IMG/VR virus record: IMGVR_UViG_3300008116_000284
Coordinates: 1-39,655 of that record
Reading direction: 5' to 3' (one strand)
Source of the DNA: a virus
DNA: 39,655 nucleotides
Position 1 is the stretch's first letter. Each line of letters opens with the position of its first letter. The notes beneath the pieces were generated by a model. It worked only from the letters and a program-made list of their open reading frames with translations, was not told the DNA's origin and did not search any database. The translations under genes and the position numbers were made by a program. Shown here piece after piece: positions 2,776 to 39,655 of this stretch.

Positions 2776-3002
2776 TGGACGAACTGATGGGTGAAATCAA
2801 CACCCCTCGCCGCAACAAGTGGTCAGAAATACAAGAGAAACTTGACAAGAAAGACTTCGACGAGTTCTGCGAAGCGTTACAAGAACCAAAGATCAGTCAA
2901 GCATCGTTGCGTAGGGCGCTCGCCAAACGCGGTGTCCACATCGGCACCGGCACCATCAGCGAACTGCGACGCGACTACCTTCGTCAGTTGGCCAGCCGAT
3001 GA
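2766..3002 (+). CDS. Small helical, probable DNA-binding protein
   Basis: 78 residues (MGMMDELMGEINTPRRNKW). The C-terminal half (KISQASLRRALAKRGVHIG then ISELRRDYLR) reads like a helix-turn-helix, with the basic second helix suited to DNA contact. Similar small proteins precede metallophosphoesterase genes in actinophages. It overlaps the neighbours on both sides (10 bases upstream, 4 downstream). A regulatory role is inferred from the fold pattern only. Confidence 0.6.
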   Translation: MGMMDELMGEINTPRRNKWSEIQEKLDKKDFDEFCEALQEPKISQASLRRALAKRGVHIGTGTISELRRDYLRQLASR

Positions 3003-4060
3003 GTTTCAAAGACGAACTATCCGACGAGAACGAGGCACTAGCAAAAGCTGACCTCATCAAGGCTCGACGTGAACGAGACGTCGCAACGAAAGAGTTGACC
3101 CGCATACGGGAAGAACTTGACGCTGCGAACCGTGCCCTGTCTATCGTGTCCTCCGTTGAGCAGACACGCCTGGAACCACCAAAGTGGATGACCCCAGCAA
3201 AACCCAAACCTTCAGCAGCAACCCTGCTCCTCATGCTCTCAGACACCCACTTTGATGAAGTGGTGAACCCCGATGAGGTGGAAGGGTTGAACGCATACAA
3301 CCGTGAGATAGCGGTCATGCGTCTCCACAAGTGGGCAACCAACACCGTCAACGTTGCACGCCACTACCTTGCCGGTGTGGACTACGACGGGGTGGTACTC
3401 ATGTTGGGTGGCGACATCTTCTCTGGAGACATCCACGAAGAACTAGCGCAAACGAACGAGGACACCATGATCTCCTCAGTCCTGTTCTGGTCTGAGCAGG
3501 TGGCTGCGGCTGTTGATGTGTTGGCGAACGAGTTCGGCAAAGTCCATGTGCCGGTCGTTGTCGGCAACCACGGACGCATGTCTCGTAAGCCGCGCATGAA
3601 ACTTCGAGCCAAAACAAACTTCGATTGGCTGCTCGGCAAAATGGTTGAGAAGCATTTCTCTAAAGATAAACGGGTCACCTTTGATATCCCCGAGGGTACG
3701 GATGCGTTGGTGTCTATCTATGAGTGGAACCATCTGCTATCCCACGGCGACCAGGTATCTGGCGGTGGCGGTATCGGTGGTATCTATCCACCAATCATGC
3801 GGATGCGGGCACGCAAAGCCCAACGGTACCTCACCACCGGACAAGATTTTTCGACACTTTGGATCGGACACTGGCACCAATACCTCCCATCCCCACACCT
3901 TGTCGTCAACGGCAGCTTGAAGGGTTACGATGAGTATGCGTTCATCAACAACTTCCAGTTCGAGCAACCACAGCAGGCGTTGGCAGTCGTGACACCGAAA
4001 CACAACATCACGTTCCACGCACCAATCTTTTCTGCTGACCGCAAAAAGGAACGCTGGTAG
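2999..4060 (+). CDS. Calcineurin-like metallophosphoesterase
   Basis: 353 residues. All metallophosphoesterase motifs are present in order: SDTHFD (81-86), GGDIFSGD (137-144), GNHGR (189-193), SHGD (248-251) and GHWH (290-293), the residues that bind two divalent metals. The N-terminal 60 residues form a charged coiled coil. Family members cleave phosphoesters; phage versions are thought to act on DNA or nucleotides, but the substrate here is unknown. The ATG overlaps the preceding stop (ATGA) and the gene precedes the recombination module, which favours a nucleic-acid role. Confidence 0.9.
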   Translation: MSFKDELSDENEALAKADLIKARRERDVATKELTRIREELDAANRALSIVSSVEQTRLEPPKWMTPAKPKPSAATLLLMLSDTHFDEVVNPDEVEGLNAYNREIAVMRLHKWATNTVNVARHYLAGVDYDGVVLMLGGDIFSGDIHEELAQTNEDTMISSVLFWSEQVAAAVDVLANEFGKVHVPVVVGNHGRMSRKPRMKLRAKTNFDWLLGKMVEKHFSKDKRVTFDIPEGTDALVSIYEWNHLLSHGDQVSGGGGIGGIYPPIMRMRARKAQRYLTTGQDFSTLWIGHWHQYLPSPHLVVNGSLKGYDEYAFINNFQFEQPQQALAVVTPKHNITFHAPIFSADRKKERW

Positions 4061-4399: not shown

Positions 4400-5335
4400 A
4401 TGCTCACTCAGATAAACAAACCTGCACACGGTTCAAACGCGTGGCTCGAAGTCAGATGGCGTAACGATAACGGTGAAGCCCGCATCGCAGCCTCAGCTTG
4501 CGCAGCAGTCCACGGACAACACCCGTTCATCACCGTCGCAGACCTCGCCAACGAACTGCTCTCCGACACGCCACCGCAACCCAAAGAGCAGAACTCTGCG
4601 ATGCTGCGAGGCACCACCCTTGAAGCACCGATCCGTGACTGGGCAGCCCAACTGCTCGGACATCCACTCACCGAACCACAAACCCTCTACTGCTGGGACG
4701 AACCAGGCGTACGCCTGATTGCCACCATCGACTCGATGAGCAAAGACGGCAGAGTGTTTGAGCAGAAGACAACGAACAAGATTTGGCGTGGCGAACTGCC
4801 CGACTACTGGTATTGGCAGGGCGTACAGCAAGCCATCTGCACCGGTGTCTCGGAGATTACGTGGGTTGTGTTTGACTCCACCCTTGACCTGCACTTCCAC
4901 ATTCAGGCGGTGTCAAGCGATGAGAAACAAACCCACATTGAGGCGTGCCGACGATTCCTCGCAGCCATCGACATGGGCATCATGCCCGATGACGCCGTAC
5001 TTGAATACCGTCACGTGCAAGACCGCCACCCAGAAGGAACCGCCAAGAAAGAAGTCGAACTCCCAATGTCAGCACTCGCCACCATCGAGCGACTGCTACT
5101 GGCCAAGGAGCAAATCAAAGCTGCGGAAGCATCAGAGGATGCGTGCAAAGCAGAACTGTGCGCCATCCTGGGCGACGCCGAATACGGCCTCATCCAAGAC
5201 GAACTTGTATGCACATGGAAAACGACGCAACGCGAATCGTTCGACTCCAAGAAGTTTCAGAAGGATCATCCAGCGTTGTGGGAAAAGTATCGCAAGTCGT
5301 CACCGGTACGCACGTTCAGGGTGTCGGGCAAATGA
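4400..5335 (+). CDS. YqaJ-type viral recombinase (lambda-exonuclease-like nuclease)
   Basis: 311 residues. The PD-(D/E)XK nuclease core is visible: GTTLEAPIRDW (71-81, with E75), D111 in IATIDSM, then E121 and K123 in EQKTT, followed by WQGVQQAICTG (about 139-149) typical of YqaJ/RecB-like enzymes. These enzymes resect double-stranded DNA to give a 3' single strand for annealing. The C-terminal third is helical and charged. It is paired with the candidate annealing protein at 5502, separated only by a 57-residue ORF. The start follows a clear ribosome-binding sequence and a candidate promoter. Confidence 0.85.
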   Translation: MLTQINKPAHGSNAWLEVRWRNDNGEARIAASACAAVHGQHPFITVADLANELLSDTPPQPKEQNSAMLRGTTLEAPIRDWAAQLLGHPLTEPQTLYCWDEPGVRLIATIDSMSKDGRVFEQKTTNKIWRGELPDYWYWQGVQQAICTGVSEITWVVFDSTLDLHFHIQAVSSDEKQTHIEACRRFLAAIDMGIMPDDAVLEYRHVQDRHPEGTAKKEVELPMSALATIERLLLAKEQIKAAEASEDACKAELCAILGDAEYGLIQDELVCTWKTTQRESFDSKKFQKDHPALWEKYRKSSPVRTFRVSGK

Positions 5336-5505
5336 CCACCTACAACAAGGCTTACTATGACACACCCGCAGGTAAAGCTAAACAGAAGCGGGCAAACCAG
5401 CGACTCCAGAACAAGCGCAAACTTGCGTGGCTGTGGCTCGCAGAGAATCGTCCAGATGTAATAGAAGAAATCAACAACCAACTGAAGAAGGAGAACAACC
5501 AATGA
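5332..5505 (+). CDS. Small basic hypothetical protein
   Basis: 57 residues starting MTTYNKAYYDTPAGKAK, overlapping the nuclease stop by ATGA and overlapping the next start in the same way. The first half is strongly basic (KQKRANQRLQNKRK), the second helical and acidic (WLAENRPDVIEEINN). Its place between exonuclease and annealing protein suggests co-translation and perhaps nucleic-acid binding; no family is recognised. Confidence 0.65.
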   Translation: MTTYNKAYYDTPAGKAKQKRANQRLQNKRKLAWLWLAENRPDVIEEINNQLKKENNQ

Positions 5506-6356
5506 ACCTGCAAGACATCCTCACCAACTATGGGGTGCCCGACCCGTCTATCGTCGGCAAACTCCCACGAGGCGGCATCACCCTCGACTTCGTAGGACAT
5601 GCTGAGATCACCAAGATTCTGATTGAGGTCGACCCGAACTGGTCATGGGAACCGGTGGCATGGACTACCGATGGGCGTCCCGCTATCAACACGGTGAACG
5701 GTATGGCTGTGATGTGGGGCAAGCTCACAGTGCTAGGTCAAACCAGGTTGGGTGTCGGCTCAGCCCGCCACGACAAACCAGACCTTGACAAGGAACTCAT
5801 CGGAGACTTCCTACGCAACGCAGCCATGCGATTCGGCATCAGCCTCAGCTTGTGGTCGAAGTCGGAGTGGGAGGAGCAGGCGGCTACGCCACGCAAACCT
5901 GCCGAGCCGAAGCCGGTGTCCCAAGATTTCGTTGCGAAGTTCCGTGAAGCTTGCACCAAGAAAGGGATCGACGCTGACCAGGTAGCCAAAGATGCTGGCG
6001 TGAACCTTGACGCAATCACCGACGAGGACGCACCAAAACTGCGCGACGCGTTCAAACAGGCAGAACAGAAACCTGCTGACCCTGTGGAGGCGGTGAAGAA
6101 CGTGTTCGGTGAGCAAGTCAAAGTGATAGCAGAAACCAAACACGAAGGCCCGTACCCGAAGAACCCCAGTGAGCCGGCAACGAAAGCACAGATAGGTAAG
6201 ATTCGTGCGCTGCTCAACGCATCAGGTGTCGCATCCTTTACGGAGAAAACTGAGGTGTGTGCCGATCTCATCAACCGTCCTATCAACAAGATGGAACAGA
6301 TGAATCAGGGTGAGGCGTCGCAAGTGATTGAGATTCTTGATGCGAGGGCATCATGA
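5502..6356 (+). CDS. Single-strand DNA annealing protein (Rad52/Erf-like) candidate
   Basis: 284 residues from the ATG at 5502, preceded by GAAGGAG; an upstream in-frame start at 5427 overlaps the preceding gene and is less likely. The N-terminal core (ITLDFVGHAEITKILIEVDPNW... MAVMWGKLTVLG... LIGDFLRNAAMRFGISL) matches phage Rad52/Erf-like annealing proteins found next to YqaJ exonucleases. A flexible Lys/Pro/Ala linker follows. The last 60 residues (TKAQIGKIRALLNASG... MNQGEASQVIEIL) form a separate small helical module. Together with the exonuclease it would make a Red-like recombination pair. Family assignment is by pattern and context. Confidence 0.72.
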   Translation: MNLQDILTNYGVPDPSIVGKLPRGGITLDFVGHAEITKILIEVDPNWSWEPVAWTTDGRPAINTVNGMAVMWGKLTVLGQTRLGVGSARHDKPDLDKELIGDFLRNAAMRFGISLSLWSKSEWEEQAATPRKPAEPKPVSQDFVAKFREACTKKGIDADQVAKDAGVNLDAITDEDAPKLRDAFKQAEQKPADPVEAVKNVFGEQVKVIAETKHEGPYPKNPSEPATKAQIGKIRALLNASGVASFTEKTEVCADLINRPINKMEQMNQGEASQVIEILDARAS

Positions 6357-7148: not shown

Positions 7149-7676
7149 ATGGAGTGGATTATCCGCCTGTTCGCAGGCTTGACGGCAACGTTCGCCCTTG
7201 TGGGCTTTTGGGGGGTGTCCGAACCGACCCCTCCTCCACCTACCACCACCCCTGTAACGGCTCTCATAACGCTTCCTATTGCGCCTGAGACGGTACCTAC
7301 CACCACTTTGCCGATACCGGCAGATGCCCTCTGCCCCCAATGGTGGGCCTTGGCTGTCGAGGCAGGCTGGACACCCGACCTCCTCCCCACCCTCGACTAT
7401 GTGATGTGGCGTGAGTCCCGATGCCAGCCCGAGGCACACAACACCACCCTCAACCGAGATGGCTCAGCCGACGTAGGCCTCACCCAAATCAACGACCGAA
7501 GCTGGTGCAAAGGCACACGCTGGTATCCAGGAGGATACTTGCAAACCGTCGGCGCATTATCTACTGTTGGATGCGAACAACTATTCGACCCATACCTCAA
7601 CCTCCTCTCAGCGAAAGCCATCTACGACTATGCGCAAACAACCAACGGAAACGGATGGCAACCGTGGAAACTCTAA
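7149..7676 (+). CDS. Membrane-anchored lytic transglycosylase (SLT/lysozyme-like)
   Basis: 175 residues, preceded by AAAGGGGAAA. Residues 7-23 (LFAGLTATFALVGFWGV) form a signal peptide or signal anchor, followed by a Pro/Thr-rich linker (about 25-58). The C-terminal domain has the hallmarks of SLT-type muramidases: MWRESRC with catalytic E89 and GLTQIN at 110-115, plus NGNGWQPW near the end. Such enzymes cleave the glycan strands of peptidoglycan. Four cysteines could form disulfides outside the membrane. Unusually, it sits among early and regulatory genes beside WhiB, far from the main lysis cassette, so it may act on the wall at another stage or be a second lysin. Confidence 0.8.
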   Translation: MEWIIRLFAGLTATFALVGFWGVSEPTPPPPTTTPVTALITLPIAPETVPTTTLPIPADALCPQWWALAVEAGWTPDLLPTLDYVMWRESRCQPEAHNTTLNRDGSADVGLTQINDRSWCKGTRWYPGGYLQTVGALSTVGCEQLFDPYLNLLSAKAIYDYAQTTNGNGWQPWKL

Positions 7677-7686
7677 GTACACGTAC

Positions 7687-7944
7687 ATGCAACTGCTAAG
7701 CGAATGGGAACTGGCCGACAAACACCAGGACTGGAAAGACGAAGCAGCCTGCTACGGACTCTCAGGCGACCTGTTCTTCCCAGGAGACAACAACCACTAC
7801 AACCCCGAAGCGTTCACGATCTGCAACCGATGTCCGGTACGTGAACGCTGTCTAGCATTTGCAATGAACAACTACATCGCATACGGTATCTGGGGTGGAA
7901 TGACCCCACCGGAACGACAACGATACAGAAGAAGCTTGTGCTAA
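7687..7944 (+). CDS. whiB-like: WhiB-like iron-sulfur transcription regulator
   Basis: 85 residues from the ATG at 7687. Four conserved cysteines are present: C22 in AACYG, the C-x2-C pair in ICNRC, and the last in ERCLAF (C-x5-C spacing), the ligands of the [4Fe-4S] cluster. The signature GIWGG follows, then a basic tail (PPERQRYRR). WhiB proteins are confined to Actinobacteria and their phages and bind the primary sigma factor to redirect transcription; the mycobacteriophage TM4 version is known to interfere with a host WhiB. This one probably alters host or phage transcription. The stop overlaps the next start (TAATG). Confidence 0.92.
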   Translation: MQLLSEWELADKHQDWKDEAACYGLSGDLFFPGDNNHYNPEAFTICNRCPVRERCLAFAMNNYIAYGIWGGMTPPERQRYRRSLC

Positions 7945-11634: not shown

Positions 11635-11829
11635 ATGAACAGCCAACAGATGAAAAACGTCGTAGCAAAAATGCTCGACGACGCACAAAAACAACTAGAC
11701 ACCACCACCAAACAAGAACAAAACGAAGAGTATTCGAGCTTCGAAACAACCGCAGAACGTCACTACGACCAAGGCTGGCGCGACGCGCTCGCCGCACTAC
11801 TCGAAACAATAACAACCCACAACCAATAG
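11635..11829 (+). CDS. Small hypothetical protein
   Basis: 64 residues (MNSQQMKNVVAKMLDDAQ...), helical, with GWRDALAALLETI near the end, a motif commonly seen at the ends of small actinophage proteins. GAAAGGTAGCC precedes the start. It lies between the membrane protein and the clamp-like gene and is followed by AGGAGAAACAACCC, the leader of the next gene. Function unknown. Confidence 0.6.
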   Translation: MNSQQMKNVVAKMLDDAQKQLDTTTKQEQNEEYSSFETTAERHYDQGWRDALAALLETITTHNQ

Positions 11830-11841
11830 GAGAAACAACCC

Positions 11842-12489
11842 ATGAACACCACCACAACCACCACGACCAGCCTCACGGCACCACCCGAAACCCTGAGAGC
11901 CATTCTCGCGGCCCTCGATGAGTACACGTCACCGGACAAACACCGCGCCGCGCTCACCCTCGCACGCCTGACACCGGTAATCGTCGAGCAAACCGACGCC
12001 GGCACACCAGCACCCACAGCACTACGATTCGAGGCCACCAACAGCACCGAGCTAGTCGAGATCACCGCCGAGATGCCGCACACGATCACCGAGGCCACGT
12101 TGATCGACCCCGCCGCGATACTTGCCGCCATGCCCAAAAAGTCGGAGGCCAAGCACCACGGCGACGCCACGCTCACCCTCACCGCCGAAGCCTGGACACT
12201 CACCACCGGCCAACACACCAACACCGGACCAGCAGCCGGACAACACACATGGCCCAACACCTACGCCCTATGGCAAAACCAACAGCCCAGCCTCGCGCCG
12301 CACCTCATCGGCGCACCCATGCTCGCCCGCCTCGCCAAACTAGCCAAACACCTCAACACCGACCACATCGAAGCCGCAACCATGGCCCACACCGACGACA
12401 AACCAGACCCACGCCGGCCACTTGTGTACACCCTCAACACCGACACACTCACCACCCGCGTACTCATCATGCCACGCAGACGCCACTAG
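11842..12489 (+). CDS. Candidate DNA sliding-clamp-like (DnaN-type) protein
   Basis: 215 residues with AGGAGAAA before the ATG. The pattern recalls actinophage beta-clamp-like proteins: a helix-strand start (LRAILAALDEYTSPDKHRAALT), TALRFEATNSTELVEI, a middle helix (IDPAAILAAMPKK), then PHLIGAPMLARLAKLAKHLN and a C-terminus RVLIMPRRRH, close to the LLMPMR ending of DnaN. The Thr run (TTTTTTT) at the start is low-complexity. About half the length of a bacterial DnaN subunit, so a different oligomer, or a decoy that binds host polymerase, would be needed. Moderate confidence; structure prediction would decide. Confidence 0.5.
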   Translation: MNTTTTTTTSLTAPPETLRAILAALDEYTSPDKHRAALTLARLTPVIVEQTDAGTPAPTALRFEATNSTELVEITAEMPHTITEATLIDPAAILAAMPKKSEAKHHGDATLTLTAEAWTLTTGQHTNTGPAAGQHTWPNTYALWQNQQPSLAPHLIGAPMLARLAKLAKHLNTDHIEAATMAHTDDKPDPRRPLVYTLNTDTLTTRVLIMPRRRH

Positions 12490-18376: not shown

Positions 18377-18733
18377 ATGAGCGACACTGCATACAACGAA
18401 GGTCCAGCAATGATGGCTGCCCGAGGCCAAACCTACGGCAAACGCCAAGAACAGATGCAAGCACAACAAGCAGTGCCGATGCGTCGTTCGCCAACAGAAA
18501 CACAACAGTTTGCTCGTCCAATGCCGGCAGGTTCCCTGTTTGCACCAACTGGACGCCCACAAGAACCGATCACTGCTGGCGCACCATTCGGCCCTGGTCC
18601 AGGTCCAGCCGCAGCCGGCATCCCGATGATTACCCCACAACAACAAGCCGTCGACGAACTACGTCAGATTGCTGTCGCATACCAGTTGGATGATTTGTTG
18701 GATGCTGTTGATGCGTATGGAGACGAACTGTGA
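18377..18733 (+). CDS. Hypothetical protein, portal-adjacent
   Basis: 118 residues, starting immediately after the portal stop. Pro/Gly/Gln-rich, disordered (QAQQAVPMRRSPTETQQFARPMPAG, GPGPGPAAAG) with an ending helix (QQQAVDELRQIAVAYQLDDLLDAVDAYG). The end overlaps the next GTG start (GTGA). Possibly a portal accessory or scaffold-like part; no family recognised. Confidence 0.6.
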   Translation: MSDTAYNEGPAMMAARGQTYGKRQEQMQAQQAVPMRRSPTETQQFARPMPAGSLFAPTGRPQEPITAGAPFGPGPGPAAAGIPMITPQQQAVDELRQIAVAYQLDDLLDAVDAYGDEL

Positions 18734-38716: not shown

Positions 38717-39655
38717 CAGCCTTCGATGGCTGATATTTCTCCCAGCAGCAATCCTCGCGCTCGCTGCCCCAGCCAAAGCCGACGCACAACCAGGACTCAA
38801 CGCCGTTGGCTACACCTACCAGCCGACAGGCATCCCCCTCCGCGTAGACGACCTCTACCCAACCTGCGGGTCAGAAACAGAAAACAACATCAACCGCAAC
38901 TTCAACGGCGAACCATTCCAAAACTGCGGATACGACTTCTTCATGGTTCACTACACAGGATTCATCACCCTCCCCGAACACGACACGATTCAGTTCATGG
39001 TCGCAGCCGACGACGGCGGCACCATCCAAATCGCAAACACCCAGTTCGGCACATGGAACGTCAAAGGCTGCTCATGGAGCCAGCAAGTCAGCCTTGATGT
39101 TGGGGCTGGCACGTATCCGTTAGACGGCTGGTTCTTTGAATGGGGTGGCGGAACCTGCTACATGCTCGCTTGGAACATTGACAACGAGGGCTGGGCCATC
39201 GGCCCCGACGAGGCGTTCACGCAAACCTCCACCCCACCAACCACCACAACCACGGCGCCTGAGACAACCGTACCTGAGACGACTGTTCCCGAGACAACGT
39301 TGCCTGAGACGACTACGACTGAGCCTGTCACCACAACCACAGAGTTGGTTACGACAACCACCGAACAAACCACGACGACGACTGTTTATGTGCCGCCAGC
39401 AACCACCACCACAGAACCCGAACCCGAGCCTGAAACTACAACGACTACGGAACCTGTCGAGGAGGAAGAGCCTCCCCTTGACAGCACGCCTCCTCAGCCA
39501 GAAGACGCCGAGCCACAGGACCCAACCCCTGAGACTCCTCCGACAACCGAGCCTGAAACGCCTCAACCCGAAACAACGCTAGAAACAGAAACGACACCAG
39601 AAGAAACATTCCCAGAACAGGAAACAGAAGAAGAATCATCAGAGTCAACCATACC
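38703..39655 (+). CDS. PA14-like exported protein, N-terminal part (runs off the end)
   Basis: Open frame from the ATG at 38703 to the window end, 317 codons. A signal peptide is clear: basic start (MRPNNSLRW), hydrophobic core (LIFLPAAILALAAPA), cleavage near KADA-QPG. Then YQPTGIPLRVDD and NRNFNGEPFQNCGYDFF, and from 38928 the same PA14-like domain and Thr/Glu/Pro linker as at bases 1-749. It provides the N-terminus missing from the left copy; the complete protein would be about 432 residues. It overlaps the fibre-partner gene by 14 bases. Confidence 0.82.
   Translation, partial: MRPNNSLRWLIFLPAAILALAAPAKADAQPGLNAVGYTYQPTGIPLRVDDLYPTCGSETENNINRNFNGEPFQNCGYDFFMVHYTGFITLPEHDTIQFMVAADDGGTIQIANTQFGTWNVKGCSWSQQVSLDVGAGTYPLDGWFFEWGGGTCYMLAWNIDNEGWAIGPDEAFTQTSTPPTTTTTAPETTVPETTVPETTLPETTTTEPVTTTTELVTTTTEQTTTTTVYVPPATTTTEPEPEPETTTTTEPVEEEEPPLDSTPPQPEDAEPQDPTPETPPTTEPETPQPETTLETETTPEETFPEQETEEESSESTI
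38928..39655. repeat. Divergent terminal repeat, right copy (partner 1-749)
   Basis: See the left copy at 1-749. This copy lacks 21 bases of the linker repeats relative to it and differs at scattered sites. If the molecule is circular, the unique length is about 38927 bases. Confidence 0.8.

Follow-up and report, generated by a model that had tools for sequence, protein, structure and literature searches.

The gene at positions 11842..12489 of the window, by which we mean the whole virus record of 39,655 bases, encodes a half-size homologue of the bacterial beta clamp DnaN that has partly retained the partner-binding pocket of the clamp and has lost the parts that make up its ring interface. 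From its sequence, the protein appears to consist of DnaN domain 2 and the second half of domain 3, three of the six modules of a DnaN subunit. With moderate confidence, we propose that this DnaN-derived, ring-less and pocket-bearing protein binds replisome proteins of the host, either as a recruiter or as a decoy.

The coding sequence lies on the plus strand, begins with ATG and specifies 215 residues, and the AGGAG at 11828..11832 (plus strand), 9 nt ahead of the ATG, reads as a likely ribosome-binding site. The protein ends in TTRVLIMPRRRH; the first-pass annotation had drawn attention to a DnaN-like RVLIMPRR at the C-terminus, and this motif is present, followed by RH at the very end. Close relatives were 90% (L001), 80% (L259) and 78% (L002) identical to the protein, and a partial relative, L003, covered its residues 1–119. 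For five close pairs of the clamp-like gene dN/dS was 0.21–0.28, and for a sixth, the window gene versus L100, it was 0.57, with synonymous change high in that pair. Substitutions between relatives were concentrated at third codon positions. As dN/dS was low and third-position changes were in excess, 11842..12489 is a real, selected gene and not a chance reading frame.

Used as a single query, the window protein found no clamp family in Pfam, PHROGs or NCBIfam and no clamp among PDB sequences, at E up to 10 throughout, and tblastn to E 1 returned nothing from 50,697 phage or 72,556 plasmid records. Its own best scores were 0.018 against a profile of half-size DnaNs and 2.1 against a DnaN profile. 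Nothing useful came from tblastn of the family member L276 in phages to E 0.1, or from searches of genome contigs with the window protein and with the terminase. PF02767 had zero matches in four records of the window group, the window record included, at E up to 10; a Pfam scan of three family members revealed no DnaN domain, none of 16 members matched the Pfam DnaN domains at E 1, and a 16-row family profile had no match among PDB sequences at E up to 10. A three-row profile hit PDB sequences of antibody light chains with E no better than 0.02 among the best 60 of 68 rows, as well as one entry under the name of a cytochrome b2 domain; we took these hits as chance. We also set aside an hhalign match of the three-row alignment to the DnaN set, which put residues 92–152 on domain 1 with E 0.054 and probability 1. 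Against the half-size set the same alignment gave E 0.0022 with a probability of 13 only, and the 16-row family gave E 0.0022 and probability 13 against four half-size sequences, over the last module.

The link to DnaN emerged through relatives of the protein. We used the terminase gene and the capsid gene as queries to gather related viral contigs, keeping 80 of 163 and 80 of 220, and a profile of three close sequences identified the equivalent gene in several of them (for example L100 at 5e-54, L139 at 9e-12). An iterated profile search converged at 20 ORFs, with the window and duplicates included, and loci added later brought this to 47 hits representing 29 distinct proteins; omitting the partial L003 and adjusting the starts of L001 and L002 gave a family alignment of 28 rows. 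When L276, L131 and L121 were withheld from the profile, it recovered them at 9.1e-23, 1.1e-20 and 2.1e-11, respectively, from 28,845 ORFs, the next best of which scored 5.1. L276 in turn matched the DnaN profile, made of ten full-length DnaNs and one MerR-annotated protein (11 sequences), at 1.3e-12, mainly over model positions 124–250 in domain 2 and with a weak second piece at 300–366 (i-E 0.099), and it matched the 31-row half-size DnaN profile at 1.6e-13, spanning 8–187 of 213. L121 scored 7e-7 on the DnaN profile and 9e-8 on the half-size profile, and L100, which is 49% identical to the window protein, scored 3.9e-6 on the latter. In the reverse search, the 28-row family profile found one full-length DnaN, from a Mycobacterium prophage (L014), at 4.8e-4, and hhalign of the 16-row family against the DnaN set placed window residues 16–149 on domain 2 (E 2.6e-5, probability 75, one target). 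Within PHROGs, L121 matched phrog_3007 (8.7e-15) and phrog_947 (1.2e-9), L100 matched phrog_6615 (5.7e-4) and phrog_3007 (0.0022), L153 matched phrog_947 at 0.007 in its domain 2 part, and L134 matched phrog_947 weakly (0.029) in its domain 1 part, while L131, L140 and L160 matched no clamp family there. At E 1, 5 of the 16 members of the smaller alignment matched phrog_947 and 3 of the 16 matched phrog_3007.

These data show, indirectly but strongly, that the protein descends from DnaN. The first-pass proposal of a half-size sliding-clamp relative is upheld by the profile links through L276, L121 and L100 and by the predicted fold described below; the search with DnaN profiles that it had also proposed succeeded for relatives such as L276 and failed for the window protein by itself. 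The lack of a direct hit in curated libraries, the 0 of 16 members in Pfam DnaN domains and a failed three-row fold prediction would suit an alignment artefact in an unrelated alpha/beta protein, an explanation that is largely refuted and in our judgement very improbable, given the transitive HMM links (E 1e-11 to 1e-23, then 1e-12), the confident clamp model and the conserved pocket columns.

Structure prediction from the three-row alignment yielded no usable model (pLDDT 32). AlphaFold2 run on 42 rows, comprising the 28 family rows and 14 of the 31 half-size DnaN rows, predicted a confident clamp fold (mean pLDDT 85.1, pTM 0.84; pLDDT 82.6–85.1 over five models), consistent with the helix-strand patterns of clamp domains that had been noticed earlier in the sequence. 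Since 14 half-size DnaN rows were fed into the prediction, the fold and homology evidence are not independent. In Foldseek, 216 matches to solved structures reached E ≤0.001, and the best of them were to DnaN clamps (lowest E 1.6e-6); over whole chains the fits were loose for the best 50 of the 216 (TMq 0.43–0.66, rmsd 4–12 Å). The top VIA-align match superposed model residues 6–215 on beta clamp residues 131–377 (Z 16.8, 2.6 Å over 185 residues), and residues 133–400 of the Mycobacterium tuberculosis clamp were matched with Z 16.5 and 2.3 Å. Modelled as a monomer, as had been suggested at the outset, the protein is thus predicted to adopt a clamp fold whose best solved matches are DnaN (Z 16–17). 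The 50 VIA-align entries listed comprised 24 DnaN and 26 PCNA-type clamps, the latter at Z 14.3–14.9; 21 of the 24 DnaN entries aligned on domains 2–3 and three on domains 1–2, the latter because clamp domains repeat one another. As the structure fits either domain pair, it is the sequence that assigns the protein to domains 2 and 3b.

Modules are the units of DnaN architecture, and we drew their borders, which are approximate, from a joint alignment together with predicted secondary structure. Module 2a (residues 9–83; 11866..12090, plus strand), with a strand-helix-strands order, corresponds to about E. coli DnaN 125–190; module 2b (residues 84–153; 12091..12300, plus strand) to about 191–254; and module 3b (residues 154–214; 12301..12483, plus strand) to about 313–366. 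At the start of module 2a the aligner set the first 16 residues on E. coli 1–16, and the structural match instead placed residues 6–7 at clamp 131–133. The half-size DnaNs compared here formed an alignment of 31 rows, being 34 representatives minus L276, L018 and L005, with ORFs truncated at contig ends excluded; L019 was excluded from the full-length set in this column comparison. Both the window family and the half-size DnaNs filled E. coli columns of about 132–254 and 312–366. Columns 17–130, which bear on domain 1, were empty in 28/28 family rows and 31/31 half-size rows, as were columns 255–258, while columns 1–16 were occupied by residues of the N-terminal tail as placed by the aligner. 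Few cells were filled in columns 259–311 (22/1484 in the family, 37/1643 in the half-size set), and a complete DnaN domain 3 is absent from the family, whose columns there are well filled only from 312 onward.

The first-pass annotation had counted about two clamp domains and argued from this for a different ring, trimeric in the style of T4, or for a clamp decoy. The alignment gives one domain, domain 2, and the second half of domain 3, and because the chain has three modules and not four, we dropped the trimer inference. PF00712, which represents domain 1, matched 0 of 35 half-clamp records versus 4 of 4 full-DnaN records, and we rejected on this ground a split clamp with domain 1 encoded elsewhere, bearing in mind that the records may be fragments; for the window family this absence is weak, because its domain 2 escapes Pfam too. 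In a tree for which the window family was thinned to 13 rows, the family formed its own branch with support of 100/100. Support was 57/70 for the half-size and 85/86 for the full-length proteins, and each of the three groups can sit on one side of a branch, so that the tree is compatible with a single truncation of DnaN as well as with two.

An excerpt of the review PMC11139829 names the residues of both pocket subsites in E. coli, R152, L155, T172, G174, H175, R176, L177, P242, R246, V247, V360 and M362 for subsite I and H175, N320, Y323, V344, M362, P363, M364 and R365 for subsite II. Placed by the alignment, the corresponding segments of the window protein, all on the plus strand, are R35–L38 (11944..11955; E. 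coli R152–L155), T66–L71 (12037..12054; T172–L177), P138–L143 (12253..12270; P242–V247), G157–M160 (12310..12321; N320–Y323, both named residues altered) and the LIMPRR tail L208–R213 (12463..12480; V360–R365). All 18 named E. coli residues (18/18) fall in kept columns. The window protein has eight of the 18 identical and two conservative, with 6/12 identical and 2 conservative in subsite I and 3/8 identical in subsite II. Across the 28 family rows, L155 is L in 28/28, M362 is M in 28/28, P242 is P in 27 and A in one, and V360 is L in 27 and I in one; G174 is S in 28/28, P363 is P in 23 and T in five, and R176, R246, N320, Y323, V344 and M364 are less kept. Column entropy was lower in the pocket than elsewhere, both in the family (1.04 versus 1.63 bits; 18 versus 142 columns; p 0.0012) and in the half-size DnaNs (1.12 versus 2.56; p 2.5e-7), these p-values being descriptive because columns are not independent.

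The same excerpt of PMC11139829 describes the ring interface of DnaN as I78, F106, I272 and L273 with the better conserved charges R103, E298 and E304. None of these seven positions (78, 103, 106, 272, 273, 298 and 304) had a counterpart in any of the 28/28 family rows, and in the half-size DnaNs they were absent from 31/31 rows save for one aligned residue at 272. Three modules can be chosen from six in 20 ways, and by a simple count we infer that only 2a+2b+3b retains every pocket segment, which is the cut seen in the window family and in the half-size DnaNs. Since the protein is without the parts from which the two faces of the DnaN dimer interface are built, it would not form a normal ring. 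A non-standard ring of its own, for example one in which four three-module subunits supply the usual 12 modules through pairing of two 3b halves, with the protein serving as a phage processivity clamp for the host polymerase, seems unlikely to us: the confident predicted fold, the PCNA-type structural matches (26 of the 50 entries listed) and, by inference, the module arithmetic would all accommodate it, and the seven missing interface residues speak against it. Binding to or insertion into the host's DnaN ring as a mixed oligomer, which would open or block that ring, we consider improbable; it could draw on the descent of the protein from DnaN, on the existence of clamp-binding proteins and on the top solved match, a beta clamp solved with Gp168, which we take to be a phage inhibitor, but domain 1 and module 3a, which contact the neighbouring DnaN subunit, are the very parts that are missing.

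The preferred reading is a ring-less recruiter or decoy, and the anatomy predicts partner binding and no standard ring. The protein would act as a small docking platform through its surviving pocket, mainly hydrophobic subsite I, and its clients would be the short clamp-binding motifs of host replication proteins, for example the alpha subunit of DNA polymerase III or the delta subunit of the clamp loader. We assume the clients to be the host's because clamp-binding motifs are no commoner than expected among the proteins of the phage itself (5 in 36 window ORFs versus 5.1 from shuffles), a count on which phage-encoded partners carrying such motifs were rejected. In this phage, which encodes a RecE-like exonuclease and a single-strand annealing protein and in which no PolA, PolB or PolIII-alpha match was found, a recruiter might draw the host polymerase to phage recombination intermediates; a decoy might keep the host's clamp partners off the host's own clamp. 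In the excerpt of PMC11139829, the Leu73/Phe74 plug of delta is described as docking in subsite I, and delta as binding a monomeric beta variant ~50 times tighter than the dimer. Given this plug site and the tighter binding of the monomer, a clamp that has subsite I but forms no ring would lend itself to trapping the clamp loader; an equally good fit is that the host polymerase is recruited to primers made by recombination. A more specific and more general version is conceivable, though we regard it as rather doubtful: that in phages of at least two distant groups a pocket-only half clamp, a DnaN cut such that all pocket segments are kept and all ring-closing parts are lost, serves as a decoy in monomeric form, capturing delta of the host clamp loader or the replicative polymerase through the LF-binding subsite, halting host replication and redirecting the polymerase to phage recombination intermediates. 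Should half clamps indeed bind partners and form no standard ring, they would provide naturally occurring inhibitors or recruiters of the bacterial replisome with a single pocket, and could guide work on the clamp pocket as a drug target.

The window record encodes a RecE-like exonuclease with a YqaJ domain (4400–5335) and a single-strand annealing protein (5505–6356, with a start that we chose), as well as a further exonuclease (2999–4060). Pfam DNA polymerases A, B and III-alpha and DnaB had no match in the window record or in the record of L001, in agreement with the earlier suggestion that the protein would fit a phage that borrows the host polymerase. The survey was extended to 35 half-clamp records (20 of 78 loci, chosen by eye for long contigs, four annotated phages and 11 window-type records), with the half-size match confirmed in 24/24 of those that are not window-type; there was one PolA match, in a Vibrio phage, and no match to PolB or PolIII-alpha. 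Four phages with full-length DnaN likewise had no PolA, PolB or PolIII-alpha match, so that the absence of a polymerase does not separate half-clamp from full-clamp phages. A phage polymerase as the partner of the half clamp was considered and set aside on these counts of PolA, PolB and PolIII-alpha. The gene tables of Serratia phage Eta, Salmonella phage VB_StyS_BS5 and Pseudomonas phage TC7 list no polymerase besides the half clamp; Eta has exodeoxyribonuclease VIII and Bet, BS5 has exodeoxyribonuclease VIII and a recombinase, and TC7 has only NinG-type recombination proteins.

Among 80 terminase loci, 15 carried the half-clamp gene, 39 with at least 4 kb of upstream sequence were without it and 26 were too short to tell, and the gene is accessory. 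At 12 terminase loci and in the window it lies ~0.8–2.1 kb upstream of the terminase on the same strand, and in L121, L122 and L124 it lies on the opposite strand, ~2.7–3.3 kb from the terminase. The window record also encodes a VanY-type peptidase, a lysozyme-like protein and a WhiB regulator, and its best terminase matches are to Streptomyces phages at ~26% identity; the WhiB gene and the terminase suggest an actinobacterial host. The WhiB-like frame (7567–7944) adjoins the lysozyme-like gene (7149–7676), and since its Pfam match (3.7e-20) spans only ORF residues 56–119, its true start may be later. An ORF of 1642 codons at 18730–23658 matches a PHROG of unknown function weakly (2e-6). The two ends of the record, 1–749 and 38928–39655, agree at 90% across an alignment of 749 columns that extends to both termini; either the genome is circular and two copies of a gene lie side by side, or the assembly has wrapped around between variants of the strain.

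Reuse of the clamp fold outside replication, for example in transcription regulation, was also considered. T4 gp45 acts in late transcription, as stated in an excerpt of PMC2988020. The window protein is divergent and Thr-rich with a partly altered pocket, and a Streptomyces plasmid gene annotated as MerR matches DnaN residues 121–366, all of which would be compatible with such reuse; the best-surviving columns, on the other hand, include the pocket for replication partners, and we give this alternative little credence. The plasmid gene (L019, 274–1341; Streptomyces atratus plasmid NZ_CP108277.1) perhaps carries a MerR-type N-terminus where a clamp has domain 1.

Halved clamps are a known kind of protein, as half-size DnaN genes are already in databases, and they are present in many phage genomes under other labels such as 'RusA-like' or 'beta subunit'. 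A search of phages with E. coli DnaN gave 313 records, 133 of which covered 80% or more of the query at a single place, and 29 of the 60 matches listed span only the middle of DnaN, mostly ~136–288, under labels that include 'DNA polymerase III beta subunit' and 'RusA-like Holliday junction resolvase'. MG065686.1 (Campylobacter phage A18a) matches E. coli DnaN at 100% identity along 366 residues, and the stretch concerned is possibly contaminating bacterial DNA in the assembly. PHROG 3007, which half-size DnaNs match over nearly its whole length, is itself labelled 'RusA-like Holliday junction resolvase', and some GenBank records of half-size DnaNs bear the same label. Four genes of this type were read (L010, 983–1519; L011, 1483–2016; L012, 944–1519; L013, 1064–1735), and at E 1 their proteins gave a weak DnaN domain and no RusA in Pfam. 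Among the matches listed from the open-licence PMC literature, we found no study of the function of half-size clamps.

The half-size DnaNs of PHROG 3007, exemplified by proteins of Serratia phage Eta (179 aa), Salmonella phage VB_StyS_BS5 (178 aa), Vibrio phage 1.237.B (192 aa) and Pseudomonas phage TC7 (224 aa), share with the window protein the combination of domain 2 and module 3b, with no domain 1 or module 3a, and a three-module anatomy that ends in an MPxR-like tail (LIMPRR in the window protein). The window protein is only 11–17% identical to the 14 half-size proteins with which it was aligned, a set that does not contain those of Eta, BS5, 1.237.B and TC7, and in contrast to the half-size DnaNs it has no PHROG hit and a diverged subsite II. 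The window family is a divergent new branch of halved clamps that curated libraries mostly miss. The best match among the predicted viral structures of BFVD was the 266-aa 'DNA polymerase III, beta subunit' of Rhodococcus phage REQ2 (E 4.8e-11, TMq 0.72), and the 238-aa 'DNA polymerase III sliding clamp' of Gordonia phage Horus also matched (E 2.1e-5). Both are longer than the window protein, and both phages presumably have hosts in the Actinomycetota; the next matches included two 202-residue proteins of uncultured phages. With the DnaN of E. coli and M. tuberculosis, the window protein shares the fold of two adjacent clamp domains, 2–3 in most structural rows, and the L155, P242 and M362 core of pocket subsite I, but at 215 residues, versus 366 in E. 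coli, it is without domain 1, module 3a and the seven named interface residues. PCNA-type clamps are similar to it in chain length and match it over ~170 residues, whereas its sequence links go to DnaN and, by alignment and secondary structure, it has three modules rather than the four of the PCNA and T4 gp45 type.
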